A DNA stretch of 64,000 bases, from contig NZ_JAEC01000006.1 of assembly GCF_000518705.1 (NCBI RefSeq), positions 1-64,000 on the forward strand. Reading direction: 5' to 3'. Position 1 is the stretch's first letter; each line of letters starts with the position of its first letter. Below the pieces are notes generated by a model. It saw only the letters and a list, made by a program, of their open reading frames with translations. It was not told the origin of the DNA and did no database searches. Shown piece after piece: positions 10,166 through 26,658 of this stretch. Origin of the DNA: Shewanella colwelliana ATCC 39565 (GTDB taxonomy: Bacteria; Pseudomonadota; Gammaproteobacteria; Enterobacterales; Shewanellaceae). Made by a program: the position numbers and the translations under genes.

Positions 10166-11824
10166 TTAGCGCAACTGTTGTAACGTCAGTTGCGTTTCAA
10201 TTTCGCCAATCAGTTGCATCAAGCTTGCTTGCTGTTTTAGGGGAGCAAATATTGGATGTCGCTCAATCAGGGTGCTGGCCAGCCAACCCTGATTAATCGC
10301 TTGGATCAGATATCGATAAGCTTGCTCCTCTTTCCCCATCTTGCTGTAAATTAACGCCAGCGTGTAGCTATCACTCGGTCTATCTGAGCCCTTTGACAGG
10401 CGTTGTTGATAGAGCTGAATCAGCTGGCGGCTGTTGCTTAATTGGCTCTTGTTTAATTGAGAGGGATTCAAGCTGTTGTCGCTCGCGAGGTACTGCAATA
10501 ACAGCCCTTGCTCCTGCATGTTGCTATCATCGCTCGCGATTAACTGTGCGGCGATAGAGAGGGTTTGCGATCTCTTATCAAGGTATAACGCGCTTTGGGC
10601 TAAACGCTCTAGAAACATCAGTTGCTCTGGATATTGGTTATTAAGGGCCTGATAGTATTGCCACGCTTGGGTAAATTCCCCCTGATGCAGATACCAGTGG
10701 CCAAGAGCCTCTTTGGCGAGGAGTGAATCGGGCTGAAGTAATAGGGCTCTATCTAAGGTATTTCTGGCTTGTGAGTATTGACCTAATGCCGTTAAGGTTT
10801 GTGCTTTATGTACCATACTAACGCTGTTTTTTGGGTTGGCTTTTAATGCTTTATTGGCCCAATTTAGCGACTGTTTTAGCTGGCCAAGCTCACGATAAAT
10901 AAAGCTAAGGTTTGACATGGCCTCACTGTAATTGGGCGTCTTTTGCAGTGCTTTTAGATTGGCGTTTACTGCTTTTGTAAGCCAACCGCGGTTGTAATAG
11001 GCTAAACCTAATGACTTATACCCTTGGGCGAGGTTTGGCGCTAATGCGATCGACTTATATGCCGCGTCAATAGCCAGCTGTTGCCAGTGGCTCGGGGCAT
11101 TAAATTGAAATACCCCTTGGCTATAGGCGTCTGACAGCCCGGCATAGGCGCGCGCCATATTGGGGTCGCGTTCAATCGCGGCCAAAAATAGATCGATGGC
11201 AAGGCGATTATCCTCTTGTCGATATCGGTGATAATACTCAAGTCCTTTCTGATAAAGCTCATTATCTAAACTATTAGCCATCACATCGACTAAAGAATCT
11301 TGATTTGGCTGAGAGAGGTGGTGATTAGATGACACCAAAATGGCTATGCAGCTAAAAAGCAGTAGGCAGGTAAATAAAACCAGCGAAGTAAGCTTCCAAT
11401 AGGTGGGGTAGTTTTCTCCTTGTCTTAAAGGCAAATGGCCATCGGTTGCCAGATTAAGTGCTACTGATGGGTTACTGCTATGCAATGGTGTGACGTCTAC
11501 TGAGGGCAGAATTCGATAGCCGCGGCCTCGTATCGCTTCGATATAAGTTGGGGCACTAGCATTATCGTTGAGCGATTTTCTTAATAACTTGATACGCTGC
11601 TTTAAGGTTTCGTCGCCCACTACATTATTGGGCCACACTTTTTCAATTAGACTTTGCTGACTGACAATCGCAGGTGCCGCCTCACACAAGGTGCATAGTA
11701 GTTGATAACTCAAGTGGGGCAACTGTACCTCTTCCCCTTGAGTATTGATCACAGTGCCGAGTTGGGTATTTAGAGTTAAGTTGGCAAACTGATATTGGTA
11801 ATTGATGCTGTCATCCCTAAGCAT
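10166..11824 (-). CDS. Membrane-anchored winged-helix regulator with TPR domain
   Basis: A 552-residue CadC/ToxR-type regulator. Residues about 10-108 form an OmpR/PhoB-type winged helix (LIEKVWPNNVVGDETLKQRI; RGRGYRI at the wing). A single membrane segment lies at about 143-166, and the periplasmic part (about 190-540) is made of TPR repeats. Such proteins bind DNA directly from the membrane without a phosphorelay, using the outer domain to sense a signal or partner. It converges on nhaC, and its own 5' region faces the sir lyase genes, so neither neighbour clearly identifies its target. Confidence 0.85.
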   Translation of the reverse strand: MLRDDSINYQYQFANLTLNTQLGTVINTQGEEVQLPHLSYQLLCTLCEAAPAIVSQQSLIEKVWPNNVVGDETLKQRIKLLRKSLNDNASAPTYIEAIRGRGYRILPSVDVTPLHSSNPSVALNLATDGHLPLRQGENYPTYWKLTSLVLFTCLLLFSCIAILVSSNHHLSQPNQDSLVDVMANSLDNELYQKGLEYYHRYRQEDNRLAIDLFLAAIERDPNMARAYAGLSDAYSQGVFQFNAPSHWQQLAIDAAYKSIALAPNLAQGYKSLGLAYYNRGWLTKAVNANLKALQKTPNYSEAMSNLSFIYRELGQLKQSLNWANKALKANPKNSVSMVHKAQTLTALGQYSQARNTLDRALLLQPDSLLAKEALGHWYLHQGEFTQAWQYYQALNNQYPEQLMFLERLAQSALYLDKRSQTLSIAAQLIASDDSNMQEQGLLLQYLASDNSLNPSQLNKSQLSNSRQLIQLYQQRLSKGSDRPSDSYTLALIYSKMGKEEQAYRYLIQAINQGWLASTLIERHPIFAPLKQQASLMQLIGEIETQLTLQQLR

Positions 11825-12120: not shown

Positions 12121-12714
12121 TTAAAGATGCTGTGGTGTCGCGTACTTTTGAGTGAGTCCTTCTAGGTAGGCTTGGATCGCTATGTCGCCCCAATCTAAGT
12201 AGCCGCGAAGAAAGCCGACCAAGTTGCCCTCGCCGTCAAATACGTATGTGGCAGGTACCACATCGGCAGGTAGCATCTTCTCCACCTGCTGTTGTGGGTC
12301 GATAAGCGTTGGATAATTTGGCTGTTGATGACGCGCTAAAAATGCGGCGACTTTGTCATACTCTGCATCGATAGACAGCGGCAGCACCACCAGGTTTTTG
12401 TCTTGGTTGTCACGACGTATCTTATCCATCATAGGGATCTCTTTAATACAGGGCGCGCACCAAGTAGCCCACAAGTTAATGAGTACTAACTTTCCTCTGT
12501 AGTCACTAAGTTTTACAGTATCGCCTTGGAGGTTTTGAAAGGGGACCTCGGTGACTTTGCGGGCGTAACTCATCTCTACAAACCTAGACATGATCATCGG
12601 CTTGGCCAGACTATCGCCTGTGGCGTAGACCTTCTCATTTGGCATTGAGGCGAAGCTTTGCGCACTTAAAAGTAACAGTGATAGGCCAAAGAGCCTTGCA
12701 AAAGGTTTAATCAT
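12121..12714 (-). CDS. CcmG/TlpA-like thiol:disulfide oxidoreductase of sir locus
   Basis: A 197-residue exported thioredoxin-like protein of the TlpA/DsbE family. Signal peptide ends ...SFA; the active site WATWCAPCIKEIP sits near residues 85-97, with the cis-Pro segment VVPATYVF near 155. CcmG-type proteins keep apocytochrome cysteines reduced so haem can be attached. The start chosen is ATG 12714, which overlaps the CcmH-like gene by 8 bases; the longer frame upstream is a shadow of that gene. Last gene of the lyase operon ccmF-like, ccmH-like, ccmG-like. In S. oneidensis this trio corresponds to the sirEFG group; I do not assign individual letters. Confidence 0.88.
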   Translation of the reverse strand: MIKPFARLFGLSLLLLSAQSFASMPNEKVYATGDSLAKPMIMSRFVEMSYARKVTEVPFQNLQGDTVKLSDYRGKLVLINLWATWCAPCIKEIPMMDKIRRDNQDKNLVVLPLSIDAEYDKVAAFLARHQQPNYPTLIDPQQQVEKMLPADVVPATYVFDGEGNLVGFLRGYLDWGDIAIQAYLEGLTQKYATPQHL

Positions 12715-13150
12715 GATGTGTATCCAATGAAGGCGGTTGTTGGGTTTGCGTGTTGCTGCGCCGGAGCCATAAAGCCCACGCAGCAATCAACGCGACTAAG
12801 AATAAAGGAAACAAGAATAGCACCATTGTGCCGGGCGCTAAGTTGGGCATATAACGTATCTTTTCACCGTAACGTTGCACCATAAAGTCGATGATCTGTG
12901 CTTCGCTGCGTCCCTGTTCAAGCTGAAGAAATATCTCAGCTTTTAGTTCGTTAGCGATGGGGGCTTGGGAGTCGAGTAAATTTTGATTGGTCGACATAGG
13001 GCAGCGTAACGTTTTAGCTATCGATAAGCCTATGGTTTTAATCTCTGTCTGGGTGTAATGCATGACAGAGGACTCTGCCGCCCAAATTGACGTTGAAATC
13101 AGTGTTGCGCTAAGCAAGAGCAGCGCAAGGCGTAATGTTATTATCTTCAT
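12707..13150 (-). CDS. CcmH/NrfF-like haem-lyase subunit lacking second active-site Cys
   Basis: A 147-residue membrane protein of the CcmH/NrfF family: signal peptide (to ...SIWA), a three-helix periplasmic domain, and one C-terminal membrane segment (about residues 104-124). The family motif LRCxxCQNQ appears as LRCPMSTNQNL, so the first Cys is present but the second is Ser and the following Gln is Thr. The rest (ELKAEI, GRSEAQIIDFMVQRYGEKI) is typical. The start ATG 13150 overlaps the ccmF-like stop by 4 bases; the longer listed frame starts inside that gene. It should present reduced apocytochrome to the CcmF-like protein, here probably for SirA. Confidence 0.85.
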   Translation of the reverse strand: MKIITLRLALLLLSATLISTSIWAAESSVMHYTQTEIKTIGLSIAKTLRCPMSTNQNLLDSQAPIANELKAEIFLQLEQGRSEAQIIDFMVQRYGEKIRYMPNLAPGTMVLFLFPLFLVALIAAWALWLRRSNTQTQQPPSLDTHHD

Positions 13151-15123
13151 GGTTGGCCTCCCGTTGCACTGATAAATGAGTACGGCTGCCAATACTTGCC
13201 TGAGTGAACAACTAACCTGCGTTGCCATAACACCATCAATCCCGCAAACATCATGAGTAGTGCGCCAATCCAGATCCAGCTCACCATAGGTTTGTCGCTA
13301 ATGCGAACCAGATACTCCTGTTCACTGAGCTGGGTTCCCATAGAGATATAGATATCGCCAAATAGGCTACGATGGATCCCAGCTGCAGAGATCTCCATGG
13401 CGTTAGTGTTGAAAGTTTGGCGTTGAGGGTAAATGTAGGTGATCAGTCTATCTCGACTGTCTTTAACCGCTATTTTTGCCTGCAGTGCGCTATAGCTTGG
13501 ATATTCAACCGTTTCGGTTGCTTCATAAATAAAAGTATAACCCGCTAAGGTTTTGCCTTGGCCTGGTCCCATTCGCAGCAGCTCCTCCTGTTCTAAATAG
13601 GAGACAGTCGTGGCGCCGAAAATGGATAGGGCAACGCCCATGTGGGCGATAAACATACCAACAAAGCGAGTCTGATCATGATGCGCTGACTTAGCGCGAC
13701 GTTTTTGCCGCTCAGTGACACTTTTTATTAGGCATAGCGGCAGCCAAATGATGCAGAAAACCCCACTAATAAGGTACAAGTCTAGCTGTTGATAAAGTCC
13801 GATAGTGGTGACAATAGCCACAGCCAATACTCCTAAGGCGTAAATGGCCAACTTTTTTATCGCCTTGTGCGAACTGGTGTGCCAGCTAAGCAGCGGAGCC
13901 GCCCCCATTAGTAATACAATAAGTAACAGTAGCGGAATAAAGATACTATTGAAGTAAGGGGCACCAACAGAGATGGTTGCGCCAGTAAGCACCTCATAAA
14001 GTAAGGGATAGCAGGTACCGAGTAAAATAGATAACGCTGTGGCTAATAGTAAGAAATTGCCCAGCTGCAATGCGACGGTTTTACCCCCTAGCGTCACCTT
14101 GGCGGAACTTATTAATCCGGGTGCTCGATAAGCAAATAGCGCCAAACCACAACCGACAAATACCATCAACAGGATTAAAATCGACGTGCCACGGGTTGGG
14201 TCAGCCGCAAAGGCATGCACTGACTGAACCACCCCTGAGCGCACCAAAAATGTTCCTAAAAGGCAGAGTGCAAAGCCCAGCAGACAGATAAATAGGCTGG
14301 ATGCATGAAAAGCGTTGCGTTTCTCGCTCAAAATTAACGCATGCACCATAGCGGTTGCAACGAGCCAGGGAATAAATGAGGCGTTCTCAACAGGATCCCA
14401 AAACCACCACCCGCCCCAGCCTAATTCGTTATACGCCCACCATGAGCCGAAGGCATTACCACCTGTCAGTGCGATCCAAGCGATAATCGCCCAGGGTCTT
14501 AACTGCTTGCAGTGTTGTTGTATTTTGTCTCGACTCTCGAGCAAAGCAGCCATTGCTCCAGCAAAACAGACGCTTAGACCAACATAGCCGATGAATAGCG
14601 CTGGAGGATGCAGAATCAAACCAATGTCCTGCAGTATAGGATTGAGGTCGCGCCCTTCAACAGGGATTTCTGGTAGCAAACGCGCAAAAGGGTTAGAGGT
14701 AAACAGCAAAAACAGTAGAAACCCCAATATCAGCATGGCGAGTATGGCGCAGAGGTATTGATGAAAATTGTCACTCTTGCGGGTGTTTAATGTGATGCAG
14801 CTATTCCAAATAGCGATAGCGACAATCCAAAACAACATTGAGCCTTCATGGCCACCCCACACTGCGGCGATTTTGTAGAGTGTCGCTAGTTGGGTGTTGG
14901 AGTTGTTGGCCACGTATGCGACAGAGAAATCATTACCAACAAATAACACACCAAGAGTAATTATCGCCGCCAATAATGCAGTGGTATTAAGGTGAACAAA
15001 TAACGAAGTGTAACTTTTTAAATAACTGCTATTTTTTCTAACGGCAATAAAAGGTGTTATTGCAAGTAATAGAGATATTACGCTGGCAATAATAAGTAGT
15101 ATTAATCCAATCTCTGCAGCCAT
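13147..15123 (-). CDS. CcmF/NrfE-like haem lyase of sir locus
   Basis: A 658-residue polytopic membrane protein of the CcmF/NrfE family. It carries WGGHEGSMLFW (about residues 89-99) and the haem-handling WWD region GGWWFWDPVENASFIPW (about 235-251), plus the C-terminal periplasmic domain typical for CcmF. The protein ligates haem to apocytochrome c cysteines. Its location divergent from sirA, with ccmH- and ccmG-like partners translationally coupled downstream, matches the specialised lyase reported for S. oneidensis SirA, presumably for the CX15CH site. ATG 15123 is preceded by AGGT. Confidence 0.93.
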   Translation of the reverse strand: MAAEIGLILLIIASVISLLLAITPFIAVRKNSSYLKSYTSLFVHLNTTALLAAIITLGVLFVGNDFSVAYVANNSNTQLATLYKIAAVWGGHEGSMLFWIVAIAIWNSCITLNTRKSDNFHQYLCAILAMLILGFLLFLLFTSNPFARLLPEIPVEGRDLNPILQDIGLILHPPALFIGYVGLSVCFAGAMAALLESRDKIQQHCKQLRPWAIIAWIALTGGNAFGSWWAYNELGWGGWWFWDPVENASFIPWLVATAMVHALILSEKRNAFHASSLFICLLGFALCLLGTFLVRSGVVQSVHAFAADPTRGTSILILLMVFVGCGLALFAYRAPGLISSAKVTLGGKTVALQLGNFLLLATALSILLGTCYPLLYEVLTGATISVGAPYFNSIFIPLLLLIVLLMGAAPLLSWHTSSHKAIKKLAIYALGVLAVAIVTTIGLYQQLDLYLISGVFCIIWLPLCLIKSVTERQKRRAKSAHHDQTRFVGMFIAHMGVALSIFGATTVSYLEQEELLRMGPGQGKTLAGYTFIYEATETVEYPSYSALQAKIAVKDSRDRLITYIYPQRQTFNTNAMEISAAGIHRSLFGDIYISMGTQLSEQEYLVRISDKPMVSWIWIGALLMMFAGLMVLWQRRLVVHSGKYWQPYSFISATGGQP

Positions 15124-15242
15124 GGTTTCATTACCTAATGTTATGTCTACTTTAACACTCGAATATTATGATGACCTTTTCAGTCAAGTTAGCACCTGAG
15201 TATCTGTCTTGTTACGTGACAGTAAGCTATTGGTCAGCGCTA

Positions 15243-15264
15243 TTCTGTGAGCGACATCAGGTAA
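15243..15264. promoter_or_regulatory. Candidate CRP site near sir lyase operon
   Basis: TGTGA-N6-TCA core (TGTGAGCGACATCAGG at 15246-15261), 12 of 22 consensus positions by eye. It lies about 120 bases before the ccmF-like start. CRP controls much of anaerobic respiration in Shewanella, so the position is sensible, but the match is partial. Confidence 0.3.
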
Positions 15265-15437
15265 AAAATATCGATAGTTTTCTTTGTCAATTTTTAAAAA
15301 GTAAAACCAATCCATTAGCTTTTTTTAGATCTAAAAAATGCCAATTTAATTATTAAAACTTAAATATATAGCTCTGTAAGTTTATGTAATTGTTGGTACT
15401 TTTAATTTTTACCTTTGTTGAGATCTAATCCCTTTAG

Positions 15438-15459
15438 TGGTGTGCGCTAGGTCATGTTT
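15438..15459. promoter_or_regulatory. Candidate CRP site upstream of sirA
   Basis: TGTG-CGCTAG-GTCATGTTT aligns with the CRP consensus at about 14 of 22 positions by eye. It is about 155-175 bases upstream of the sirA start. No promoter hexamers could be set with confidence. Confidence 0.35.
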
Positions 15460-15614
15460 TTACTCGGTTTTATATGGAGAATACTGAACTTGCTCAGTTG
15501 TATCAGTCGTTCGGTTAACGATTAGGTTTACTAAATCCAATAGATGGCTGCGTAATGGATGAGCAGTTATTCATTGGTCAATAAATATAAAACCAAAATA
15601 ATATTTAGGAGTGA

Positions 15615-17657
15615 ATGATGAGACGATGGAAACACAAGGTAGCTCTAAGCGTGCTATTTTGTTTCGGTGCCATTGCTAATGTTAACGCTGCTGGTGGTAA
15701 ATATAACAGCGTACCAGAAATGGGCAAAACCGCTAAAGAAGCGATAGCCAACTACCAAGGAACAGAAAAAGTTAGTGGTGTAAAAACACTGCAAGATTAT
15801 ATTGTTCAAGAGGCTGAGTTATTCGATTTCTTATTCGAAAACCATCCAATGTTTAAGTATCAAGAAGCGGGAAACTTAGTGGGTGATTACCACATCAGTG
15901 ACCGTGGTGAAGAGTATTTAGATACTGGCCATAGCCCCGAGTACAGTAAAAATGCTGGCGCTCCAAGAGCGGTTCAGTATCGTTTAGGTGCTAAATCTAT
16001 TCTTGATTACCCCAATAATTTTGTTGGACCAGAAAAGTGTGCTGAGTGTCATGCGACGCAATATGAGAAGTGGAAACGCTCACGTCATGCAAAAACGATT
16101 CGCTTCCCTGGCGAACATCCAGAGGTCGATAACGACCTAGAAAAAACCATGTATAGCACTGAAGGTACCTCTATTTTACCAGATGGTATTACCCCTGATG
16201 CTATCTATGCAACGGTGGGGACACCCCGTACCAAGTATGGCTTTATCGATGCGTGGTTAGTGCGCGGCAGCTACCACATTGAAGGTGGTTTGCTCAAAGA
16301 TGGCACTGGTAAAATGGTCGCAGGTGCAAACCAGTTCTCCCGTGGTTGGGCCGAATGGTTAACCCCTGAAGTATCGAAAAAAATTAATGCCGTTATTCCT
16401 GAGTTTCCACTGACGTTAGAAGACTTTGGCGCGTCTGGTTCTCACCAACGCGGTATGAGTTCTTATGGTGCTAAGTATCGTAAAGAGATGTTGTTCCAAC
16501 CTGCCAGCTCTTACTGTGAAGTGTGCCATACATTCAAGTTTGATTTTAAGAACAAGCAAGAGTTTTTTGATGCGCTAGGTGATCCCAAGAAACTGCAAGA
16601 GCACACCATCAGCCGTGGTATCGCGTGTGAAGAGTGTCATGGCGCTGGTGGCCACTTAGATGGCGGTACAGGTGGCATGCAGTCAAATTGCGAACGTTGT
16701 CACCAACGTTTCCAATACGATCCTGTTATGGCTGAAACCGATGCAGCGAAAGAGAAACCTGAGCTTGCCTTTGGTGTGAAGATGAAGTCGTTATGCCCAT
16801 CTTGTGGTACCGAGGGCTCGCAAATGTATGGCTCTGCGCACTATGAAAAAGGGATGCGTTGTACCACTTGTCATGATCCTCATGAGGTGACTGATGGTTC
16901 ATGGATGACAGAGTTTACTAAGCCAAAGCTGAAGAAACAGTGTACTGACTGTCATGAAGCGCAAACCTTGATTGCGAGTAATACCGATACTCATAGCAAC
17001 CAAACTTGCCAAAGCTGTCACATGCCTAACATGGGTAGCTGTGAAAACTTCAAGGCGATGCAGTTCCCTGATCAAGCCGGTTTCGACGCTGTGCGTAAGT
17101 CGCACATGTGGAAAATTGATGTTGATCCGACCCGTAAAACCCTTAACCCACCAGAAGGTGAGCCGCGTACACAAGGGCCTAAGGCGGGTAAAGGTTGGAC
17201 GGTTGCTAAGAACGAAGAGGGTCGCACTTACCTTGATTTAATGTGGTCTTGTGCCCGTACCGCCATCTCGGATCACGATGTGGTTGACAATAAAGGTTGT
17301 CATAGCCAGTTCCAATCCGAGCTAGAAACCGGTCTTCACTACAAGGATCAGATGGAGATCTACGGTGAAGTGATGAAGTGGCAAAAGCCGATCAAACAGG
17401 TGTTTACTGAAGTTGAGCAAGCACTAGAGCGTATCGACCAGCTATTGGAAGTCACTAAGCTATCTACTGAAGACAAGACTCAAGTACTGATGCTTGCCGA
17501 GAAGGCACAGGAAACGGTGGATCTGATCAAGGCTGATGGTTCTTGGGGGGTTCATGGCTTCCGTTACAGCCAGAAACGTCTTGATGCCGCACTGACTTAT
17601 GTCACGCAGGCGCAAAAAATCTTAGATGGTAGCGGCTATACAGCTAAAGCTAACTAA
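15615..17657 (+). CDS. sirA: Octahaem cytochrome c sulfite reductase SirA (MccA type)
   Basis: Periplasmic terminal reductase converting sulfite to sulfide with six electrons. The 680-residue precursor has a signal peptide ending ...NVNA. Seven CXXCH haem sites start at Cys 142, 301, 338, 359, 416, 443 and 465; the eighth is the rare CX15CH, Cys546 to Cys562-His. Extra cysteines at 394/397 (CPSCG) and 476 (GSCEN) are candidates for the two thiolate ligands of the active-site Cu(I) known in Wolinella MccA. The C-terminal quarter is helical. AGGA precedes two ATGs; 15618 has better spacing than 15615. Neighbours encode a dedicated lyase, quinol dehydrogenase and copper module, as in the described S. 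oneidensis sir locus. Confidence 0.96.
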
Positions 17658-17728
17658 GTGGCGTAACCAATCTACCTCGGCACTTTTGTGTAACGAATAA
17701 AGGTGTCGGGGTATTCAGGAGAAATCCA

Positions 17729-18154
17729 ATGAAACAACTTGCTGCAATAACCTTGGCTGGCATGTTGGGCATCACTAGCTTCACTTGCCAAGCTGGTGGC
17801 GGCTCTGAAATGGCACCTGCCCACCAGTATGAGCATACGCTACAAACCATCAGCCTAACCCAAGGCGAGGCGTTGTTAGCGCAGCCCGGAGTGCTTTTTT
17901 TTGATGTGAATACCCTAGAACTATGGGCGGAGGGCTTTATACCCGGTGCAATTTTTTTCAACGTCAGTAACTGGAAAGAGCTACTTCCCGAGGCCAAAGA
18001 CACCGTCATGGTGTTCTATTGTGCTAATCGGCTTTGTAATGCCAGTGAAATAGCCGCCCATGAGGTGATAAAACTGGGATACACCAATGTCATGCAGATG
18101 CACGACGGTATCTATGGTTGGCGATTATCGGGCCGACCCACAGAAAAACCATAA
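17729..18154 (+). CDS. Periplasmic rhodanese-domain protein of sir locus
   Basis: A 141-residue exported protein: signal peptide ending ...TCQA, then one rhodanese domain. The family motifs LFFDVNTLELWAEGFIPGA and the active-site loop YCANRLCNAS with catalytic Cys (about residue 97) are present; a second Cys five residues on is unusual but seen in some homologues. Ends with the typical GIYGWRLSGRP. Rhodaneses carry sulfur as a Cys persulfide, which suits a sulfite/sulfide locus. It follows sirA by 71 bases, with AGGAGA before the start. Confidence 0.88.
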   Translation: MKQLAAITLAGMLGITSFTCQAGGGSEMAPAHQYEHTLQTISLTQGEALLAQPGVLFFDVNTLELWAEGFIPGAIFFNVSNWKELLPEAKDTVMVFYCANRLCNASEIAAHEVIKLGYTNVMQMHDGIYGWRLSGRPTEKP

Positions 18155-18211
18155 TAACAATATTGAGTGATTTATCTGTCATTTGAGCAATTAAATTTAG
18201 AGAGAAACTTT

Positions 18212-18997
18212 ATGAAAATGTTCGCTAAAACAGCATTATCGACAACAACTTTTGCGGTGTTATGTGGCCTATCTTTTGTGGTATCAGCCAGTGAAACACG
18301 TCAACAAGTGGATGATGCATCCTATGCCTTGGGCGCATCTGTGGGTCACTACATTTCTGGAAAAATTTACAGCCAGGTTGAGCTAGGCGCCGAGGTCAAC
18401 GTGGATATTGTGGTTGAGGGCGTTATCGATGCACTAAAAGGCAAAGGCAAGATGTCTGACGAAGAGATTTTAACTCACCTGAATGCACGTGTAGAGCTGC
18501 TTAATGCAGCCAAAGATGCGCGAATTGAGGCGATCTCGGTTAAGAACTTAGCTGAAGGTGCTGCTTACTTGGCAAACAATAAAACCAATTCGGCGGTAAC
18601 GGTAACCAGCACGGGATTGCAATATGAGGTGCTTGAGCTGGGAGAAGGGGTCAAGCCGCTTGAATCCAACGTGGTTACGGTTCATTACAAAGGTCAACTC
18701 GTCGACGGCACTGTGTTTGATGACTCTTATGAGCGAAATGAACCTAACCGTTTCGCCCTTATGTCGGTGATTGACGGTTGGAAAGAGGGGATCGCACTGA
18801 TGCCTGAAGGGTCAAAGTTTCGCTTAACTATCCCTGCTGAACTGGCTTACGGCAAAGAGCAGGTTGGCATTATTCCGCCAAGTTCCACCCTTATTTTTGA
18901 TGTAGAGCTGCTTAAAGTTGAAGAGCCTGGCGCTAATTCTCATGGTATGGGACTGAGCGGTATGGGGATGGGCGGCATGATGGGAATGGGTCACTAA
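18212..18997 (+). CDS. FKBP-type peptidyl-prolyl isomerase with Met-rich tail
   Basis: A 261-residue periplasmic FKBP/FkpA-like isomerase. Signal peptide ends ...VVSA; an N-terminal helical dimer domain (about residues 25-115) precedes the FKBP domain (about 135-240; VTVHYKGQLVDGTVFDDSY; AYGKEQVG.IPPSSTLIFDVELL). After residue 240 comes GMGLSGMGMGGMMGMGH, with six Met and a final His, resembling Cu(I)-binding tails. Wolinella mccB is also an isomerase in the equivalent locus, so it probably helps fold SirA and may carry copper. ATG 18212 (after AGAGA) is preferred over upstream ATG 18167. Confidence 0.9.
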   Translation: MKMFAKTALSTTTFAVLCGLSFVVSASETRQQVDDASYALGASVGHYISGKIYSQVELGAEVNVDIVVEGVIDALKGKGKMSDEEILTHLNARVELLNAAKDARIEAISVKNLAEGAAYLANNKTNSAVTVTSTGLQYEVLELGEGVKPLESNVVTVHYKGQLVDGTVFDDSYERNEPNRFALMSVIDGWKEGIALMPEGSKFRLTIPAELAYGKEQVGIIPPSSTLIFDVELLKVEEPGANSHGMGLSGMGMGGMMGMGH

Positions 18998-19025
18998 GTT
19001 TGGTCACCAGCAGTAGAGTATTGTT

Positions 19026-19727
19026 ATGAATAGTCTTGTCATTGCCATAGTCGTCATCCTATTGAGTTTCATCGCTCCTTTATGGTTACTTCATCTCCGT
19101 GCCGTAAACCCCAATGACACTAGTGTTGCAACACCATCACTGACCCCTGCTAAGTTGATGTGGTTAATACCAACGATGATAACGCTTACTCTGCTGCTGG
19201 TAACCCTTACTGTTTATGTTCAAATTGGTCGTTTCGCCGATTGGGATAAAGGTTATGTCGATGAAAACATCGACTACCTTATCGCCGCCGATATTAACAA
19301 AAATGCCAAGGCAGTCAGCGAAACACCCCATGACAAGATAGCGCTGCTTAAGCTTGCGCATGCCTACGCCGAAGGGGGCTTATATGCCCAATCGGTTGAA
19401 ACCTTAGATAAATTATTGGCGATAGAGTCCGACGCTGAAGTGCTTGGCATGAAGGCTAATGCACTCTATTACCGTGATGGTCGAGACATGAGCTTAGAGG
19501 TGTCAATCATCCTATCTCAAGCCCTTGCGATCGACCCAAATGAAATTCAATCTCTGCTGTTAATGGCGACCCATGCTTATCTGAATAAGGAATTTCAGCA
19601 AGCAATCGCTTATTGGCAGCAGTTGTTGGATAGCAACAACCCAAACGTAAACCGAGCATCAATAAACCGTGCGATTTTAAAAGCTGAGCAGAGCCAAGCT
19701 AACCGTACCGTGACTGCATCTGAGTAA
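19026..19727 (+). CDS. CcmI/NrfG-like TPR protein of sir locus
   Basis: A 233-residue inner-membrane protein with two N-terminal membrane segments (about residues 4-24 and 44-66) and a periplasmic TPR region (about 100-215; LKLAHAYAEGG, LGMKANALYY, ALAIDPNEI). This is the layout of CcmI/NrfG, which bind the C-terminus of apocytochromes and hand them to the lyase. It therefore completes the ccmF/H/G-like set encoded divergently. The gene sits between the isomerase and the FeS protein on the rightward operon. Confidence 0.85.
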   Translation: MNSLVIAIVVILLSFIAPLWLLHLRAVNPNDTSVATPSLTPAKLMWLIPTMITLTLLLVTLTVYVQIGRFADWDKGYVDENIDYLIAADINKNAKAVSETPHDKIALLKLAHAYAEGGLYAQSVETLDKLLAIESDAEVLGMKANALYYRDGRDMSLEVSIILSQALAIDPNEIQSLLLMATHAYLNKEFQQAIAYWQQLLDSNNPNVNRASINRAILKAEQSQANRTVTASE

Positions 19728-19790
19728 AAGAGTCACCAAAAATCGAAAAGCTTAAATAGGTCAGCCCTGTGCTGACAGATGGAGGATGCT

Positions 19791-20498
19791 GTGAGTGAAA
19801 ATATAGAGAGACGGAGGTTCCTTAAATGTTTGGGAGCCGGCTCTTTGATACTAGCGCCCTTAGGGTGCACTTCGGTCAAAGAGGAGACCACCGATAGCAA
19901 TAAACCGCGCTATGGGATGGTGTTTGATCAAAATAAATGTGTGGGTTGTGGTGAATGTAAAGAGGCCTGTAATAAGGCCAATAACCTACCCGAAGGTAAG
20001 TCTCGTATGCTACTTGAGCAGCAATCGGGTGGCGTTGAGGGGCAGGTTTGTCCGCATTGTGGCAAGAGCAGTTGTGATTGTCAGCGTAAGTATGTGCGTG
20101 TTTCTTGTCAGCAGTGTCAGAACGCACCATGTGTCACGGTTTGTCCAACGGGGGCGGCTCACCGCGACCCAGAGACAGGTATTGTGACCATGGATGCTAG
20201 CAAGTGCGCAGGGTGTAAATACTGCATAGCAGCTTGTCCTTATGATGCACGCTATATCAATAAGGAAACAGACGTTGCCGACAATTGCGACTTTTGCCTG
20301 CACAGTAAATTGGCAAAAGGCGAACTACCAGCCTGTGTCCAGCAGTGTCGTTATGATGCGCTGATCTTTGGTGATCTGAATGATCCCAATTCCTACGTGA
20401 GCCGTCTGCTGGCGGTTAAAGACGCCGTTCGCATAAAGGCTCATTTCGGCACCGAGCCAAGTTTACGCTACATTCCTGTAGTGAAGTTGGGGGTATAA
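19791..20498 (+). CDS. sirC: 4Fe-4S protein, NrfC/MccC type (SirC)
   Basis: A 235-residue iron-sulfur electron-transfer subunit. The N-terminus has a twin-arginine-like signal (ERRRFLK followed by a hydrophobic stretch ending LAPLGC), suggesting export by Tat and perhaps lipid anchoring at the Cys. Cysteine groups CVGCGECKEAC, CPHCGKSSCDC, CQQCQNAPCVTVCP, CAGCKYCIAACP and CDFC...CVQQC fit four 4Fe-4S clusters of the DmsB/NrfC family. It should carry electrons from the NrfD-like protein to SirA. GTG 19791 is chosen because GGAGG stands 5 bases upstream; ATG 19779 has no such site. Confidence 0.9.
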   Translation: MSENIERRRFLKCLGAGSLILAPLGCTSVKEETTDSNKPRYGMVFDQNKCVGCGECKEACNKANNLPEGKSRMLLEQQSGGVEGQVCPHCGKSSCDCQRKYVRVSCQQCQNAPCVTVCPTGAAHRDPETGIVTMDASKCAGCKYCIAACPYDARYINKETDVADNCDFCLHSKLAKGELPACVQQCRYDALIFGDLNDPNSYVSRLLAVKDAVRIKAHFGTEPSLRYIPVVKLGV

Positions 20499-20501
20499 GA
20501 G

Positions 20502-21449
20502 ATGGATGGAACACTTGAATTCTCCATGGGCCTGTCGGATGGCATCGCATGGCCTTGGCCGATTGCCGTTTATCTATTTTTTGCTGGGATCTCTGGTGGC
20601 GCGTTGTCGGTGGCACTGTTTATCCGTTTTTACAAAAAACAGACGGTTAATACGCCATTTCTTAAAGCTTCGGCATTGGTCTCATTTATCACTATTGCAC
20701 TAGGGATGTTGTGCTTGGTGCTGGATTTAACCAACCCGCTATTTTTCTGGCGAATATTGGTTTACTACAACCTTAACTCAGTGATGTCGGTTGGGGTAAT
20801 AGCACTGTCGGCTTACATTCCTTTGGTGGCGTTAATTGCACTATTTGCATTGGAAGATGAGATTAAGCGAATACCTCTGCTACATCCACTGCTGCCGATT
20901 ATCGATAAGCTGCGTGGTGTCCGTCGTCCCAGCGAGATGTTAGTGCTGGTATTGGCGCTGTCGGTGTGTGCCTATACCGGCTTTCTCATCTCTGCATTGA
21001 TCCGCTTTCCGATCATCAATACATCGGTATTGCCAGCTTTGTTTGTGGCATCAGGATTGTCGGCGGGGGCTGCGGCAGCCAAGATGCTTGCAGTTGGCAT
21101 GTTTAAGGAAGATCTACACAGCCAAGATATGAAGATCTTACATGGTGCAGAGTGGCCAATTATGCTCGCTGAGGCGCTATTCCTGTTCATGATCATTATG
21201 TCATTGATGACAGGTAATGCGGGGGCGCAAAGCGCCTTTGAAGCCTTTCATTCTGGCACTTGGTCTATGGTGTTTTGGCTGGGCGTTGTTGGTCTGGGTT
21301 TTGGTGGGCCACTGCTGCTCAACTTCGCTACGGGTAAACAGTTTAGCCATTCGGCAAAGGCATTTTACTTGTCAGGTCTTTGTGCCGTGAGCGGCATGAT
21401 GTGTTTGCGTATGTTTATCCTCTATGCAGGGCAAAACTTCGCGATTTAA
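20502..21449 (+). CDS. sirD: NrfD-like menaquinol dehydrogenase membrane subunit (SirD)
   Basis: A 315-residue polytopic membrane protein of the NrfD/PsrC family with eight or so hydrophobic segments. The N-terminal pattern GLSDGIAWPWPIAVYLFFAGISGGA is typical of the family. NrfD-like proteins oxidise menaquinol and pass electrons to their FeS partner, here encoded 3 bases upstream. This fits the report that sulfite reduction in S. oneidensis needs menaquinone but not CymA. Confidence 0.92.
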   Translation: MDGTLEFSMGLSDGIAWPWPIAVYLFFAGISGGALSVALFIRFYKKQTVNTPFLKASALVSFITIALGMLCLVLDLTNPLFFWRILVYYNLNSVMSVGVIALSAYIPLVALIALFALEDEIKRIPLLHPLLPIIDKLRGVRRPSEMLVLVLALSVCAYTGFLISALIRFPIINTSVLPALFVASGLSAGAAAAKMLAVGMFKEDLHSQDMKILHGAEWPIMLAEALFLFMIIMSLMTGNAGAQSAFEAFHSGTWSMVFWLGVVGLGFGGPLLLNFATGKQFSHSAKAFYLSGLCAVSGMMCLRMFILYAGQNFAI

Positions 21450-21512
21450 TCACTCTTATCCCCTCTCTTTAATATGTGATTGAGAGGGGATACTGCGACA
21501 TTTGGAGCTTTA

Positions 21513-22001
21513 ATGAGAACCTTAGTTTTAATACTTTCTGTTGTATTTTTGATGTCAGGCTGCGGTGCAGCAGAGCCTGAGGTGAATGAGATTCAAGCCG
21601 TTACCATTGGCGATCATGATCGCTGCCATATGTGTGGCATGATGGTCAAAAAATATCCCGGACCTAAGGGGGTTATTGCGCTCAACAGCAATAGCATTAG
21701 CCCAAGTTTTTGTTCAACTCGCGACATGTTTATGTTTGCGCTTCAGCCAGAAAACCAGCGTCAGGTGAAACACCTCTATGTTCATGACATGGGTAAGACA
21801 GATTGGGAACACCCTGAAGATGTGCACTTTATCGATGCCACCAAAGCTTGGTATGTCTATGGTACCAGCCGTAAAGCGGTAATGGGCAGTGCTGTGGCCC
21901 CCTTCTCAACCCGCAGTGACGCTGAGGCTTTTGCCAAGGAGTTTGGTGGGGCGGTACTCGACTATGATCAAATCACTTTGCCGCTGTTGTCTGGCGAGTA
22001 A
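21513..22001 (+). CDS. nosL: NosL-like copper-binding lipoprotein
   Basis: A 162-residue outer-face lipoprotein of the NosL family. The signal peptide ends in a lipobox (LMSGC), and the mature protein has HMCGMMV (about residues 39-45), the Cu(I)-binding Cys/Met cluster of NosL. The start is ATG 21513 after GGAG; a longer frame from 21480 has no ribosome site. NosL normally supplies copper to N2O reductase, but no nosZ or nosR is present here. In this operon it probably supplies Cu(I) for SirA. Confidence 0.9.
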   Translation: MRTLVLILSVVFLMSGCGAAEPEVNEIQAVTIGDHDRCHMCGMMVKKYPGPKGVIALNSNSISPSFCSTRDMFMFALQPENQRQVKHLYVHDMGKTDWEHPEDVHFIDATKAWYVYGTSRKAVMGSAVAPFSTRSDAEAFAKEFGGAVLDYDQITLPLLSGE

Positions 22002-22007
22002 AGTGCG

Positions 22008-23384
22008 ATGAAGCCGATGTCATGGTCAAGCAGCTTACCTCTTTTGGTGGTGTTATTACTGCTTTGCTGGCCAGGCTTGCAGGCCTATGGCGACGACCAA
22101 ACCTTAAGTCAGGATGTTAGTCGTGGCAGTCTCAATTCAATCGGCAACGACTTTCATGGCACTTACCATAGTGTGAGCAGTGCTAGTGAGTTGACTTTGC
22201 AGTTGGCTCAGGCAGAAGCTGGTAGCACCATTGAGCTACAAGCCGGGCTCTACTCTGGGCATTTTGTTATAGATAAACGGCTGCATTTAGCTGCGCAACC
22301 TGGCGCAGTGATCGATGCACAAGGGCAGGGTACAGCCGTTAAGATTATGGCTGCGGGTGTCGTGGTGAGTGGTTTAACTGTGCGTAATTGGGGCCCAGAC
22401 CTGTATCAGAAAGACGCGGCGTTTCTCTTAAGTGAGGCCAGCGACAGCGTGCGCTTACTCAATAATCACTTAACGGGACCTGGTTTTGGTATCTATACCT
22501 ATCAGCTAAAAGATCTGCTGGTGCGGGATAATTATATCCGTGGCGATGCGAGGCTCGGTAAGCTTGATAGGGGGGATGGTATCCATCTATTGCGAGTCGA
22601 TAAGCCGCTGATCAGCGATAACCAGATTCATCATGTGCGTGATGGGGTTTATTTAGAGTCGGGCAGCGGCAGCCAAGTCTACGGCAATACCTTTACCGAG
22701 CAGCAATATGGTATTCACTACATGTATACCCAAGACGATGAGGCGATGGATAATCGTGCTTCTCACCTTGATGGGGGGTACGCGCTGATGAATGCCGAGG
22801 CAATAAACTTAGGGTATAACCGAGTATCACAAGCGCGTGAGTTTGGAGTGCTGCTCAACATGACCAACAATGCACGAATTCATGGTAATCAAATTGAGTT
22901 GGTCAGTGCGCCCGATGCAGCACTTGGCGATCTCTTTGCCCAAGGTAAGGGGCTTTTCATCTATGGGGCTCGCGACAATCAAATCTATGGCAACTACATT
23001 GCCGCTAATGACATAGGTATCGCGATGGCGTTGGGTGGTGAAGGTAATCAGGTTTATCAAAACCAATTTATCGATAACAGCACTCAAGTGCGTTATGTCG
23101 GTGAGCAGCAGGTAGAGTGGAGCCTGCATCAGCATGGTAATTTCTGGAGTGACTATCGCGGCTGGGATCTTAATGGTGATGCAGTCGGAGACAGTATTTA
23201 CCTTCCTAATGACCGCTTAGACCGATTATTTTGGCTCTATCCCGAGGCGAGTTTCTTAATGGAAAGCCCGGTGGTGAAGTTACTTAAGTGGGTGGATAGT
23301 CGCTTACAACTCAATAATTTAACAGGGGTGATGGACAGTTATCCGTTGATGAATCGTCAATCATTTTTGGAGGCTTCACAATGA
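22008..23384 (+). CDS. nosD: NosD-like periplasmic copper-maturation protein
   Basis: A 458-residue exported protein: signal peptide ending near LQAYG, then a right-handed beta-helix made of NosD/CASH repeats (repeated RDNYIRGD, SDNQIHHV, YGNTFTEQ, HGNQIELV, YGNYIAAN patterns, about residues 80-370). NosD works with the NosFY ABC transporter to mature the copper centre of N2O reductase. It starts 6 bases after nosL and overlaps nosF by 4 bases, so the four genes form one translationally coupled block. Confidence 0.92.
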   Translation: MKPMSWSSSLPLLVVLLLLCWPGLQAYGDDQTLSQDVSRGSLNSIGNDFHGTYHSVSSASELTLQLAQAEAGSTIELQAGLYSGHFVIDKRLHLAAQPGAVIDAQGQGTAVKIMAAGVVVSGLTVRNWGPDLYQKDAAFLLSEASDSVRLLNNHLTGPGFGIYTYQLKDLLVRDNYIRGDARLGKLDRGDGIHLLRVDKPLISDNQIHHVRDGVYLESGSGSQVYGNTFTEQQYGIHYMYTQDDEAMDNRASHLDGGYALMNAEAINLGYNRVSQAREFGVLLNMTNNARIHGNQIELVSAPDAALGDLFAQGKGLFIYGARDNQIYGNYIAANDIGIAMALGGEGNQVYQNQFIDNSTQVRYVGEQQVEWSLHQHGNFWSDYRGWDLNGDAVGDSIYLPNDRLDRLFWLYPEASFLMESPVVKLLKWVDSRLQLNNLTGVMDSYPLMNRQSFLEASQ

Positions 23385-24346
23385 GCGAACTAGAGCCGGC
23401 GGTGCGACTAGCTGGGGTGAGCCATCATTTTGCCGAGCAGCGAGTGTTACATGATGTAGAGCTGGTATTAGCACGAGGCACAACACTCGCCTTGCTAGGC
23501 CATAATGGAGCGGGTAAGTCGACCCTGATGAAGATGATATTGGGCTTGATCTCTCCAGCGCAAGGCCAGGTTGAGGTGCTTGGGCAAAGGTTACAGTGCG
23601 GTGAACGACCCACCTCAATTGGCTACTTGCCAGAAAATATTAATTTTTACGATAAGCTCACGGGTCATGAAGTGCTCAGTTATTTTGCGGCACTCAAAGG
23701 CGAGCGTTCAACACGAGTGAGCCAATTGATTGAGGAGTTCGGCCTAGGTTATGCGCAGCATAAGCCCGTAAAAAGTTACTCGAAAGGGATGAAGCAGCGA
23801 TTGGGTTTTGCCCAAGCCATTATTGCCCAACCCAAACTGCTACTGCTCGACGAGCCGACCGTTGGTTTAGACCCGCAGGCATCGCAGTTTCTCTATAGCA
23901 AGGTAAATCAATTACGGGATCAAGGATGTGCGGTCATTATCTGCACCCACGAGCTGAATCTAGTGGAGCCCCATTTGGATGTTGCCATGATGCTCGGTCG
24001 TGGCAGGTGCTTAGCCTTTGGCTCACTCGCGCAGTTGCTAGCGCAGAGCGAGCTAGGTGTTCAGATAACATTTAACGCCATAGAGAGCGTGGTGTCCAAG
24101 CATGCTCCTTTAGCTGAGTTTTATCATCAAGGCGATTTACGCTGCTCTATCAGCCAGCGAGCATGGCTCATTCAATACCTTACTCGCGAATGTGGAATTT
24201 TTGACTTTGATATAAAAAATCCATGTTTGGCAGACATTTATAACGAAAAAATGACACAGATGCAGTCTTGTAATGAACAAGGCCTCAGTTTCACATCATC
24301 GATCTCATATTCATCCAATTGGAGTCTGAACAATGTTACCCCATGA
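23381..24346 (+). CDS. nosF: NosF-like ABC transporter ATP-binding protein
   Basis: A 321-residue ABC ATPase. Walker A is GHNGAGKST (about residues 40-48), the signature is YSKGMKQRLG (about 132-141) and Walker B LLLLDEP (about 153-159). The C-terminal extension past residue 210 is typical of NosF/CcmA-like proteins. It overlaps nosD by 4 bases and nosY by 14, so the three are co-translated. It should energise the NosY permease during copper-site assembly. Confidence 0.92.
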   Translation: MSELEPAVRLAGVSHHFAEQRVLHDVELVLARGTTLALLGHNGAGKSTLMKMILGLISPAQGQVEVLGQRLQCGERPTSIGYLPENINFYDKLTGHEVLSYFAALKGERSTRVSQLIEEFGLGYAQHKPVKSYSKGMKQRLGFAQAIIAQPKLLLLDEPTVGLDPQASQFLYSKVNQLRDQGCAVIICTHELNLVEPHLDVAMMLGRGRCLAFGSLAQLLAQSELGVQITFNAIESVVSKHAPLAEFYHQGDLRCSISQRAWLIQYLTRECGIFDFDIKNPCLADIYNEKMTQMQSCNEQGLSFTSSISYSSNWSLNNVTP

Positions 24347-25181
24347 GCTTACAGTATGGCGTGGCCCTGTAATGATTATTGCCGCTAAAGAGATCAAAGA
24401 CAGTTTACGTAATCGCTGGGTTACGGTTATCTTTGCCATTTTTATGTTATTAGCGCTCAGTGTCACCTTTGCAGGGAGCGCAGTATCAGGCACGTTATCG
24501 TTTCCTGCGCTAGCCAGTGTGATCACTAGCTTGTCGACAGTATCTGTATTCATTATTCCCCTTGCGGCAATTTTACTTAGCTATGATGCGTTTGTCGGGG
24601 AGGAGGAAGCGGGCACCATGCTACTGTTGCTGAGTTACCCATTGACTAAGCGACAGATTTTCATGGGTAAATTTGTTGCCCATAGTGCAATCATGGTCAC
24701 TGCTATTACCATCAGTTTCGGTCTTAGCGCCGCTATTTTATTAGGCTTTGGTGATGGCTATCTTTGGGGGAAGACCTTGAGTGCGTTCGGACAATTTATT
24801 TTAAGCAGTAGCTTGCTTGCCGTCACTTTTATTCTTATCAGTTATCTGGTTAGCGTAAGGTCGAGTGAGAAGGCTAAAGCGGTGGGCAGCCTGTTGTCGA
24901 TCTGGTTTAGTTTAGTGTTAATTTATGACCTGATTTTGCTGGCGCTGCTTGTTGCCGATCTGGGGAGCACGGCGCAAGTAATCGTTAATGCCATGATGTT
25001 GCTTAACCCTACCGATATTTACCGTGCCATTAACCTTTTTTCAACGGGCACACAGTTTGGCGGTGTGGCCTTGCTGACTAAATCGAGTTTGAGCAGTGGT
25101 CTGCTATATATGTTGTTATCGATTTGGGTCGTGTTGCTGGCATGGTTATCCCAACGTGCCTTTGCACGTAAAGCGATTTAG
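24333..25181 (+). CDS. nosY: NosY-like ABC transporter permease
   Basis: A 282-residue membrane protein of the ABC-2 type permease group with six hydrophobic segments. The segment IIAAKEIKDSLRNRWV at the N-terminus and YDAFVGEEEAGTMLLLLSYPLTKRQI are typical for NosY. ATG 24333 overlaps nosF by 14 bases; ATG 24372 would also fit the family start and cannot be excluded. It ends the rightward sir operon. A weak hairpin without T-run at 25198-25223 follows. Confidence 0.88.
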   Translation: MLPHELTVWRGPVMIIAAKEIKDSLRNRWVTVIFAIFMLLALSVTFAGSAVSGTLSFPALASVITSLSTVSVFIIPLAAILLSYDAFVGEEEAGTMLLLLSYPLTKRQIFMGKFVAHSAIMVTAITISFGLSAAILLGFGDGYLWGKTLSAFGQFILSSSLLAVTFILISYLVSVRSSEKAKAVGSLLSIWFSLVLIYDLILLALLVADLGSTAQVIVNAMMLLNPTDIYRAINLFSTGTQFGGVALLTKSSLSSGLLYMLLSIWVVLLAWLSQRAFARKAI

Positions 25182-25374
25182 TCAGTCCATCCCGCAGGCA
25201 GATCTTTTGTGTAACAAATCTGCGCTATGCCTCACACTCTCTGACTTTTCTCTGTTTGATGAGGAGCAAATTGAGTAAGTTATCACAGTAAGTTGTGCAG
25301 GTAATAACTAAAATCTTCAATGATAATAACAAGATATTTCTAATGTATGCATATAGAAATGACAGAGGTGTAAG

Positions 25375-26658
25375 GTGGTTAAAGTTACTCCATATCTGGA
25401 GTTCGATGATGAAGCGCAACAGCTTTTCGACCGTACCTGTAGTGAGACGGTTCATTTAACCTTTTCAGAATCGGCGATTTTGGCACATTTGTTGACCATG
25501 CCAGACGCTATTTGCGATAAAGACTTGTTATTACAGGTTGGATGGCCAGACCGCGTGGTGGCTGCAACGTCGCTAACACAGTGCATCAGTACGCTGCGTA
25601 GAAAGCTCGAACCCTACCCTGAAATTCAATTGAAGACTATTGCCAGACGCGGTTACCAGCTGCATGTGTCGGCAAAATCCCATGTGACCATGCTGGCGGT
25701 TAATGATGCTGAATCAATAAAAGATGCATTGATTGATGTGTCATTGATGGTCAAAATCGGCGGCATTTTAGTGTTGCTTGGTATCATAGCAACGCTTTGG
25801 TATGGTAGTGACTATCATCAAGTGATGAAGCAGACGGGACATTGGCAAGCGGATAAGAGTATCGACCTAAATATTGGTGGCACGACGCGGCCGTTGACGC
25901 TTATCTATCCTCGTGATGAGCAAAGTTTACATCCTTCTATGTGGCAAAAGCATATTGCTCCTGAGACAAACAAGATCGTCGGCATGGATGCATTCAATGG
26001 CTTTGCGCTGACTGATGGCAACCACTATTCGGTTGCCACTTGTCCACCAGATGCTGCAGGTAATTGTGTTGGTGAGCACATTATTAATCTTACCGCCACG
26101 GACCTCGCCCCGGCAGGGCTAGACATGCAACAATTTATGGCGTTGAGTGAGTTGATGGAAAATAGAATTCGTTTTAATCGAATACTTATCCCTGCTACTG
26201 CGTCAGACAGTGCCGACTTAGTCGAGCATCATTATCATGGCGATATCTACTTCCCCGTGGCTAATGAATTGCTGGTACGGGCAGATATGAGTATCTCTAT
26301 GGTGTATGAAAAACCGTTAAGCGGTAAGTTTTACTCTAGCGCCTGCATTACCGATCAAGACTGTATGACCACGCCAATCAAGTATCAGGTACGAGGTATA
26401 TTTGAGCAATACCGACAGCAGATTGGTGAACTTGACGTCGATGTATTCCATGTCAAAGTGCAACAAAAGGATTTGATAAAACCGGATGTTGTTAGCGACT
26501 CGGCGATGCATTTTTATCGAGAGATCCGTAAGCATAATATTCGTGATGAAGAGCTGTTTTATTACCGTATCTACACAGATAAGGAGACGGCTGTTTGGGT
26601 GGTGCCGTTACTTGGTAACCTGATCACTTGGACAAAGTATGAAAAAGTTGCGTTATAG
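25375..26658 (+). CDS. ToxR-like membrane-bound winged-helix regulator
   Basis: A 427-residue one-component regulator. An OmpR-type winged helix fills about residues 20-98 (LLLQVGWPDRVVAATSLTQCISTLRRKL; IARRGYQL), one membrane segment lies at about 124-143, and the rest is periplasmic. The outer domain has four cysteines, at about 223, 231, 324 and 330 (CPPDAAGNC and CITDQDC), which could form disulfides or bind metal. The start is GTG 25375. It follows nosY by 193 bases on the same strand and is bounded by a terminator, so it is a strong candidate regulator of the sir genes, though this is inferred from position only. Confidence 0.85.
   Translation: MVKVTPYLEFDDEAQQLFDRTCSETVHLTFSESAILAHLLTMPDAICDKDLLLQVGWPDRVVAATSLTQCISTLRRKLEPYPEIQLKTIARRGYQLHVSAKSHVTMLAVNDAESIKDALIDVSLMVKIGGILVLLGIIATLWYGSDYHQVMKQTGHWQADKSIDLNIGGTTRPLTLIYPRDEQSLHPSMWQKHIAPETNKIVGMDAFNGFALTDGNHYSVATCPPDAAGNCVGEHIINLTATDLAPAGLDMQQFMALSELMENRIRFNRILIPATASDSADLVEHHYHGDIYFPVANELLVRADMSISMVYEKPLSGKFYSSACITDQDCMTTPIKYQVRGIFEQYRQQIGELDVDVFHVKVQQKDLIKPDVVSDSAMHFYREIRKHNIRDEELFYYRIYTDKETAVWVVPLLGNLITWTKYEKVAL

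Follow-up and report, generated by a model that had tools for sequence, protein, structure and literature searches.

The closest described counterpart of the gene cluster studied here is the sir locus of Shewanella oneidensis (SO0476-SO0490; PMC6976685, PMC5955497). According to the available passages of PMC6976685, mutants in sirA, sirEF and sirR of this species lose sulfite reduction, and sirH, sirG and ccmI help in the process. A table in the available part of PMC5955497 gives SO0480 as the sulfurtransferase gene sirB, SO0481 as the isomerase gene sirI, SO0485 as nosL and SO0488 as nosY. The homologue with a solved structure is MccA of Wolinella succinogenes (4rkm, 4rkn), which matches SirA over its whole length and has seven CXXCH motifs, one CX15CH motif and both of the likely copper-ligand cysteines. 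We analysed the first 64,000 nucleotides of contig NZ_JAEC01000006.1 of Shewanella colwelliana ATCC 39565 (hereafter the window), which belongs to a Shewanella genome of 4.58 Mb and in which an initial annotation, made from the sequence alone, had placed a complete sulfite respiration locus at 12121-25181.

The sir locus and its octahaem reductase

Open reading frames and family matches in the window reveal a complete sir locus: sirHFE and sirA-sirB-sirI-sirG-sirC-sirD-nosLDFY run in opposite directions, and sirR comes after the latter. Judging from the sequences, the structural model of SirA and the analogy with S. oneidensis, we are highly confident that this is the sir locus described in that species, likely allowing sulfite to serve as a respiratory acceptor here; the locus itself is ordinary, adding one more species with a published system. 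The named genes and their order, sirHFE, sirA-B-I-G-C-D, nosL...nosY and sirR, are those of S. oneidensis in a check that used SO0476-SO0485, SO0488 and SO0490 (SO0486, SO0487 and SO0489 are unnamed in the available passages), and the order also matches that in Shewanella sp. ANA-3 (L060). No gene lies between nosY and sirR here; in MR-1 the locus tags would allow for one, SO_0489. The minus strand at 12121-15123 carries sirH, sirF and sirE, so that dedicated haem lyase genes adjoin sirA across a sirE-sirA gap of 491 bp; the plus-strand genes from sirA to nosY end at 25181, and the locus extends beyond this point, as the regulator gene sirR at 25375-26658 belongs to it too. For sirH, sirF, sirI and nosL, the start was moved to an internal ATG. 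The genes are as follows.

12121..12714, minus strand: sirH, periplasmic TlpA/DsbE-type thioredoxin (start moved from TTG 12786 to ATG 12714)
12707..13150, minus strand: sirF, CcmH/NrfF-type protein (family match, start refined)
13147..15123, minus strand: sirE, haem lyase of the CcmF/NrfE type, of which the genome encodes two (family match)
15615..17657, plus strand: sirA, octahaem sulfite reductase of 680 aa with seven CXXCH and one CX15CH, likely copper ligands C397 and C476, and an extra C394
17729..18154, plus strand: sirB, single-domain rhodanese that has a CANRLC loop (C98, C103) and whose N-terminus is signal-like
18212..18997, plus strand: sirI, peptidyl-prolyl isomerase of the FKBP type (start moved from GTG 18167)
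19026..19727, plus strand: sirG, CcmI/NrfG-like tetratricopeptide repeat (TPR) apocytochrome chaperone (family match)
19779..20498, plus strand: sirC, NrfC/DsrO-type 4Fe-4S protein (family match)
20502..21449, plus strand: sirD, NrfD-like membrane protein, predicted quinol dehydrogenase (family match)
21513..22001, plus strand: nosL-like copper chaperone lipoprotein (start refined)
22008..23384, plus strand: nosD-like beta-helix protein (TIGR04247, 380.9 bits against a cut-off of 300)
23381..24346, plus strand: nosF-like ABC ATPase (family match)
24333..25181, plus strand: nosY-like ABC permease (family match)
25375..26658, plus strand: sirR, ToxR-family membrane activator with a span at about 122-140 and invariant C223, C231, C324 and C330

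SirA contains exactly seven CXXCH motifs, at C142, C301, C338, C359, C416, C443 and C465, plus one CX15CH motif (C546...C562-H563), exactly in the number and at the positions given by the initial annotation; 2000 shuffled SirA sequences contained a mean of 0.02 and a maximum of one CXXCH. The CX15CH motif agrees with that of S. oneidensis, printed as CX12NKGCH in the available passages. Of the 20 cysteines, C16 lies near the N-terminus, 14 belong to the seven CXXCH motifs, C546 and C562 to the CX15CH motif, and the remaining three are C394, C397 and C476; with all of them accounted for, SirA has no CXXCK haem site of the pentahaem NrfA type. The sole distinct Protein Data Bank sequence matching SirA at E <= 0.001 is that of MccA (4rkm/4rkn, phmmer E-value 2.4e-251), and 4rkm/4rkn also rank first in a Foldseek search with the AlphaFold model of SirA (mean predicted local distance difference test score 77.5), with template modelling scores of 0.86-0.89 and 54% identity, followed by distant OcwA-type cytochromes with E-values of 5e-6 and weaker. 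By sequence and model, SirA belongs over its whole length to the family of the haem-copper sulfite reductase MccA. Together with the presence of the maturation, iron-sulfur/NrfD and Nos genes, this bears out the annotation of the locus as complete. The closest named SirA proteins, from S. insulae and S. aquimarina, are 92-93% identical. The genome of the window encodes one SirA, and a class-wide sample of 369 genomes yielded no further SirA besides this one.

The accessory genes listed by the initial annotation, namely, a CcmF/H/G-like lyase, a CcmI-like TPR protein, an FKBP, an iron-sulfur/NrfD pair and NosLDFY, were likewise all found in 12121-25181. However, it regarded the rhodanese and a possible dedicated regulator as additions of this copy, which we rule out because both are published for S. 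oneidensis, where SO0480 is sirB and where, in the passages available, SirR is required for sirA expression and sulfite reduction (PMC6976685); Shewanella gene maps agree, with a rhodanese directly after sirA in 45 of 46 loci.

In the working that we propose, SirD would draw electrons from menaquinol and pass them through the iron-sulfur protein SirC to periplasmic octahaem SirA, which would reduce sulfite to sulfide at the CX15CH haem, next to a Cu(I) bound by C397 and C476. SirE, SirF and SirH, with SirG and the general Ccm system, would mature SirA, as demonstrated in S. oneidensis; the NosLDFY-like proteins are predicted to supply copper, and SirI to assist folding. SirB is predicted to dock on SirA, either handling sulfane sulfur or guiding the electron donor. 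CRP would raise the level of SirR, which would in turn switch on the sirA operon, both steps being demonstrated in S. oneidensis.

Several points weigh against this reading. The copper-ligand assignment starts from the MccA ligands C399 and C495, which we take to be residues 411 and 507 in the numbering of the deposited chain, and the SirA model has low confidence at the site (residues 395-401 and 474-477). Seven Shewanella loci (L062, L063, L066-L070) lack sirC and sirD between sirG and nosL. The genome also encodes two NrfA-type cytochromes, and NrfA takes sulfite as well as nitrite according to the available part of PMC8840924, so that NrfA is possibly a minor sulfite reducer here. Such promiscuity of multihaem reductases also lends some plausibility to SirA itself mainly reducing nitrite, hydroxylamine or a sulfur oxyanion, with sulfite as a minor substrate. 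We consider this very improbable, as sulfite reduction is lost in S. oneidensis lacking sirA and nitrite reduction is retained in its sir maturation mutants (available passages of PMC6976685), the two NrfA-type proteins are available for nitrite, and SirA belongs to the MccA family over its whole length. We also searched the genome for another dissimilatory sulfite reductase. A NIR_SIR search returned a single match, a 580-aa frame of CysI size, and no DsrAB pair; with this single protein, no DsrAB or AsrC competitor is apparent in the genome. The second NrfA-type cytochrome lies at G000:C4:271204-272457, with an NrfD-like gene at 276527-277438, about 4 kb off on the same contig.

The seven loci without sirCD make the electron route less certain than the enzyme. 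The route from menaquinol through the NrfD-like and iron-sulfur proteins to SirA, as put forward in the initial annotation, is the published model and fits the window, which has both genes, but it is not general in Shewanella. In three of the genomes without sirCD (G002, G006 and G029), no close SirD was found elsewhere; they encode two more distant NrfD-like proteins (39-48%) of kinds also present in the genome of the window and in G014. NapC/NirT-type quinol dehydrogenases occur in all five genomes searched, one protein being of CymA size, which suggests that Shewanella without sirCD might use a CymA route.

The copper site, the third cysteine and the rhodanese

C397 and C476 of SirA align with the cysteines at positions 411 and 507 of the deposited MccA chain, and are therefore the likely copper ligands. 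The AlphaFold model was set aside as unfit for copper geometry because its confidence is below 50 at residues 395-401 and 474-477. Copper is present in the active site of MccA, yet it is not crucial for activity according to the available part of PMC6703420, which speaks against a strict need for the site. A few relatives deviate at these positions: the Parasutterella protein P0067 lacks C476, and P0061 and P0062 are gapped at C397. Three residues ahead of C397, SirA has a third cysteine, C394, where Wolinella MccA has glycine. This position is Cys in 54 of 57 sequences in the alignment with MccA. In a larger alignment of 175 sequences, which takes the best 120 of 374 hits (two of these 120, shorter than 600 aa, were left out) and thus leans to SirA-like proteins with shares that differ from those of the whole family, it is Cys in 140, Gly in 32, and Ala, Asn and a gap in one each. 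Among 397 Campylobacterota genomes, including that of Sulfurospirillum locus L075, 96 harbor a SirA/MccA relative, with Cys in 39, Asn in 2 and Gly in 55 (the Gly type is called GPGC below).

The residue at 394 goes together with the rhodanese. A rhodanese directly follows sirA in 48 of 51 loci of named genomes, the exceptions being L074 (a Shewanella metagenome-assembled genome, on a 3.5-kb contig), L075 and L081. A SirB profile was run against as much as 1.5 kb of the DNA following each of the 96 Campylobacterota sirA genes, after 14 short loci had been replaced by longer fetches of the same places. A SirB-like domain was found downstream of 41 genes, 39 with Cys394 and 2 with Asn394, all with a CX17CH or CX18CH spacer, and of none of the 55 GPGC-type genes with CX15CH, one of which is followed by less than 600 bp of sequence. 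In another set of 68 sirA copies in 67 loci, some of them from genomes present in two collections, a rhodanese follows 65 of 66 Cys394 copies and neither of two GPGC copies. The Shewanella marina locus L079 (G001:C29) was left out of this set because its sirA is in two pieces in different frames, neither of which reaches 450 residues; another copy lies on another G001 contig. In a tree of 130 rows, from which duplicates were removed and in which near-identical Shewanella loci were thinned, the GPGC proteins form one clade of 43 rows with support 100, which also takes in P0106 and P0111, the Ala and Asn proteins. On this phylogeny the agreement between Cys394 and the rhodanese is therefore one old split, not a statistical association of many events, and we discarded the latter view as weak.

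Each of the 41 Campylobacterota rhodaneses is the N-terminal part of a longer frame, which contains exactly six CXXCH motifs. Thirty-eight of these frames are complete (661-735 codons) and three are cut at the end of the fetched DNA. Pfam scans of four of the 41, two of which were also scanned with NCBIfam, matched Rhodanese, multihaem families and a part like cytochrome b561 or the formate dehydrogenase gamma subunit; the cytochrome-b561 match is over the cut-off in two of the four, and the formate-dehydrogenase matches are all below it. Four hydrophobic segments follow the haems in the four fusions examined. This architecture suggests that the fusion may carry electrons from quinol to SirA, with the rhodanese domain as its contact.

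Two alternatives need to be weighed here. C394 could be a relic of its clade that takes no part in copper binding, since the Cys/Gly split falls on one long tree branch and so represents a single event, and since the two Campylobacterota SirA with Asn394 still have the rhodanese. Yet the residue stands only three positions from a likely copper ligand, and SirA-type proteins with as little as about 54% identity still have it; we give the relic an even chance. SirB, for its part, could be an ordinary sulfurtransferase, detoxifying or recycling sulfur with no physical link to SirA, in keeping with the retention of the active-site C98 in 120 of 121 aligned SirB family members (the exception being a fused Campylobacter aviculae copy). 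However, every rhodanese-bearing locus in the Campylobacterota sampled has the domain fused to the six-CXXCH frame adjoining sirA, and the cysteine equivalent to C98 is kept in 14 and lost in 27 of these 41 fusions. In Campylobacterota at least, this suggests that the domain serves in binding. We thus put plain sulfurtransfer at somewhat below even, and slightly favor a SirB that would dock on SirA.

Upstream blocks and SirR

Aligned sirA upstream regions share three conserved blocks, which are listed here with the site upstream of sirR.

15322..15337, no strand assigned: conserved palindrome TTTTTAGATCTAAAAA in the sirE-sirA gap (aligned upstream regions)
15441..15461, plus strand: conserved block TGTGCGCTAGGTCATGTTTTT, which may be a degenerate CRP site by its resemblance (aligned upstream regions)
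15491..15529, plus strand: block B1, conserved 39 bp upstream of sirA, predicted candidate SirR operator (aligned upstream regions)
25272..25287, plus strand: TGAGTAAGTTATCACA, a CRP-like site ahead of sirR (with the half-sites of S. oneidensis)

Allowing up to 8 mismatches, B1 occurs 30 times in 52 sequences (1.10 Mb), always upstream of sirA, and the same search with the reversed and five shuffled patterns gave no match. It was not found at this threshold in 22 of the 52, 17 of which are Shewanella, including the diverged tandem copies L051-L058. In its own genome B1 is single at up to 3 mismatches. We rejected a conserved RNA hairpin, since the left arm changes from CGTTC to CAATC in one group with the right arm unchanged. 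Several Shewanella (G010, G015, G031, G338; L034, L035, L038, L044, L046, L050) carry two tandem sir operons, both of which include a sirR; of the SirA proteins, the diverged one is 77-79% identical to that of the window, and sirEFH were seen beside one copy only. L012, which groups with the diverged copies in the tree yet bears B1 with 3 mismatches, speaks against a simple view in which every tandem copy has an operator of its own. A genome grouping with Ferrimonas has two almost identical sirA genes 6 kb apart (G064:C1:60015-68271).

Upstream of sirR, the half-sites TGAGT and TCACA flank AAGTTA, as in the TGAGT-N6-TCACA before sirR of S. oneidensis, where CRP acts via SirR in the available account of PMC6976685. 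SirR itself has a winged helix-turn-helix domain and a membrane span, its most hydrophobic stretch being 122-140. C223, C231, C324 and C330, all past the span, are Cys in 51 of 51 sequences, including the tandem paralogues and one Ferrimonas, and by analogy with the ToxR plan they would face the periplasm. As sulfite opens disulfides by sulfitolysis, these cysteines could sense sulfite directly. PMC6976685 nowhere uses the words disulfide, sense or signal.

The window encodes a second winged-helix protein, with TPR repeats (10166-11824), between an antiporter gene and sirH; such a gene before sirH was met in L031, L054, L078 and L080 among the 51 loci of named genomes. An Rfam scan of the window matched only a tRNA and an L31-type ribosomal protein leader (RF03157, 43528-43580).

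Two possible designs of haem-copper sulfite reductase

The comparison with the known systems addresses three gaps, namely, the role of SirB, the copper site of SirA relative to the solved structure, and how SirR detects sulfite. A literature search covering listings, abstracts and some passages met no description of C394, the split that coincides with the rhodanese, the fusion, the SirR cysteines or the 39-bp block upstream of sirA; the 2015 MccA and 2011 SirA papers were outside the search and may contain the first four. Taken jointly, our observations can be read, with considerable doubt, as two designs of haem-copper sulfite reductase: an MccA design with a two-cysteine copper site and no rhodanese, and a SirA design with a three-cysteine site (C394, C397, C476) and a rhodanese clasping SirA. 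In Campylobacterota the clasp would be the front end of a one-piece quinol-to-SirA donor, often without the sulfurtransferase cysteine, and in Shewanella SirR would sense sulfite directly through its four periplasmic cysteines, by sulfitolysis of a disulfide. The solved structure, that of MccA, is of the other proposed design, so that its copper site could be a poor guide to SirA-type enzymes.

Wolinella MccA differs from the SirA described here in having Gly in place of C394. In two GPGC-type loci whose open reading frames were listed, L075 of Sulfurospirillum and L081 of Helicobacteraceae, there is a CcsBA-like lyase (ResB and Cytochrom_C_asm) but no rhodanese beside sirA. The Campylobacterota loci with CX17CH SirA resemble the locus of S. 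colwelliana in having Cys394 in 39 of 41 (Asn in two) and a rhodanese domain immediately downstream. They differ from it in the spacer, CX17CH or CX18CH versus CX15CH, and in the rhodanese, which is fused to six CXXCH motifs and to hydrophobic segments resembling cytochrome b561 or the formate dehydrogenase gamma subunit, as compared with the single-domain SirB found here.

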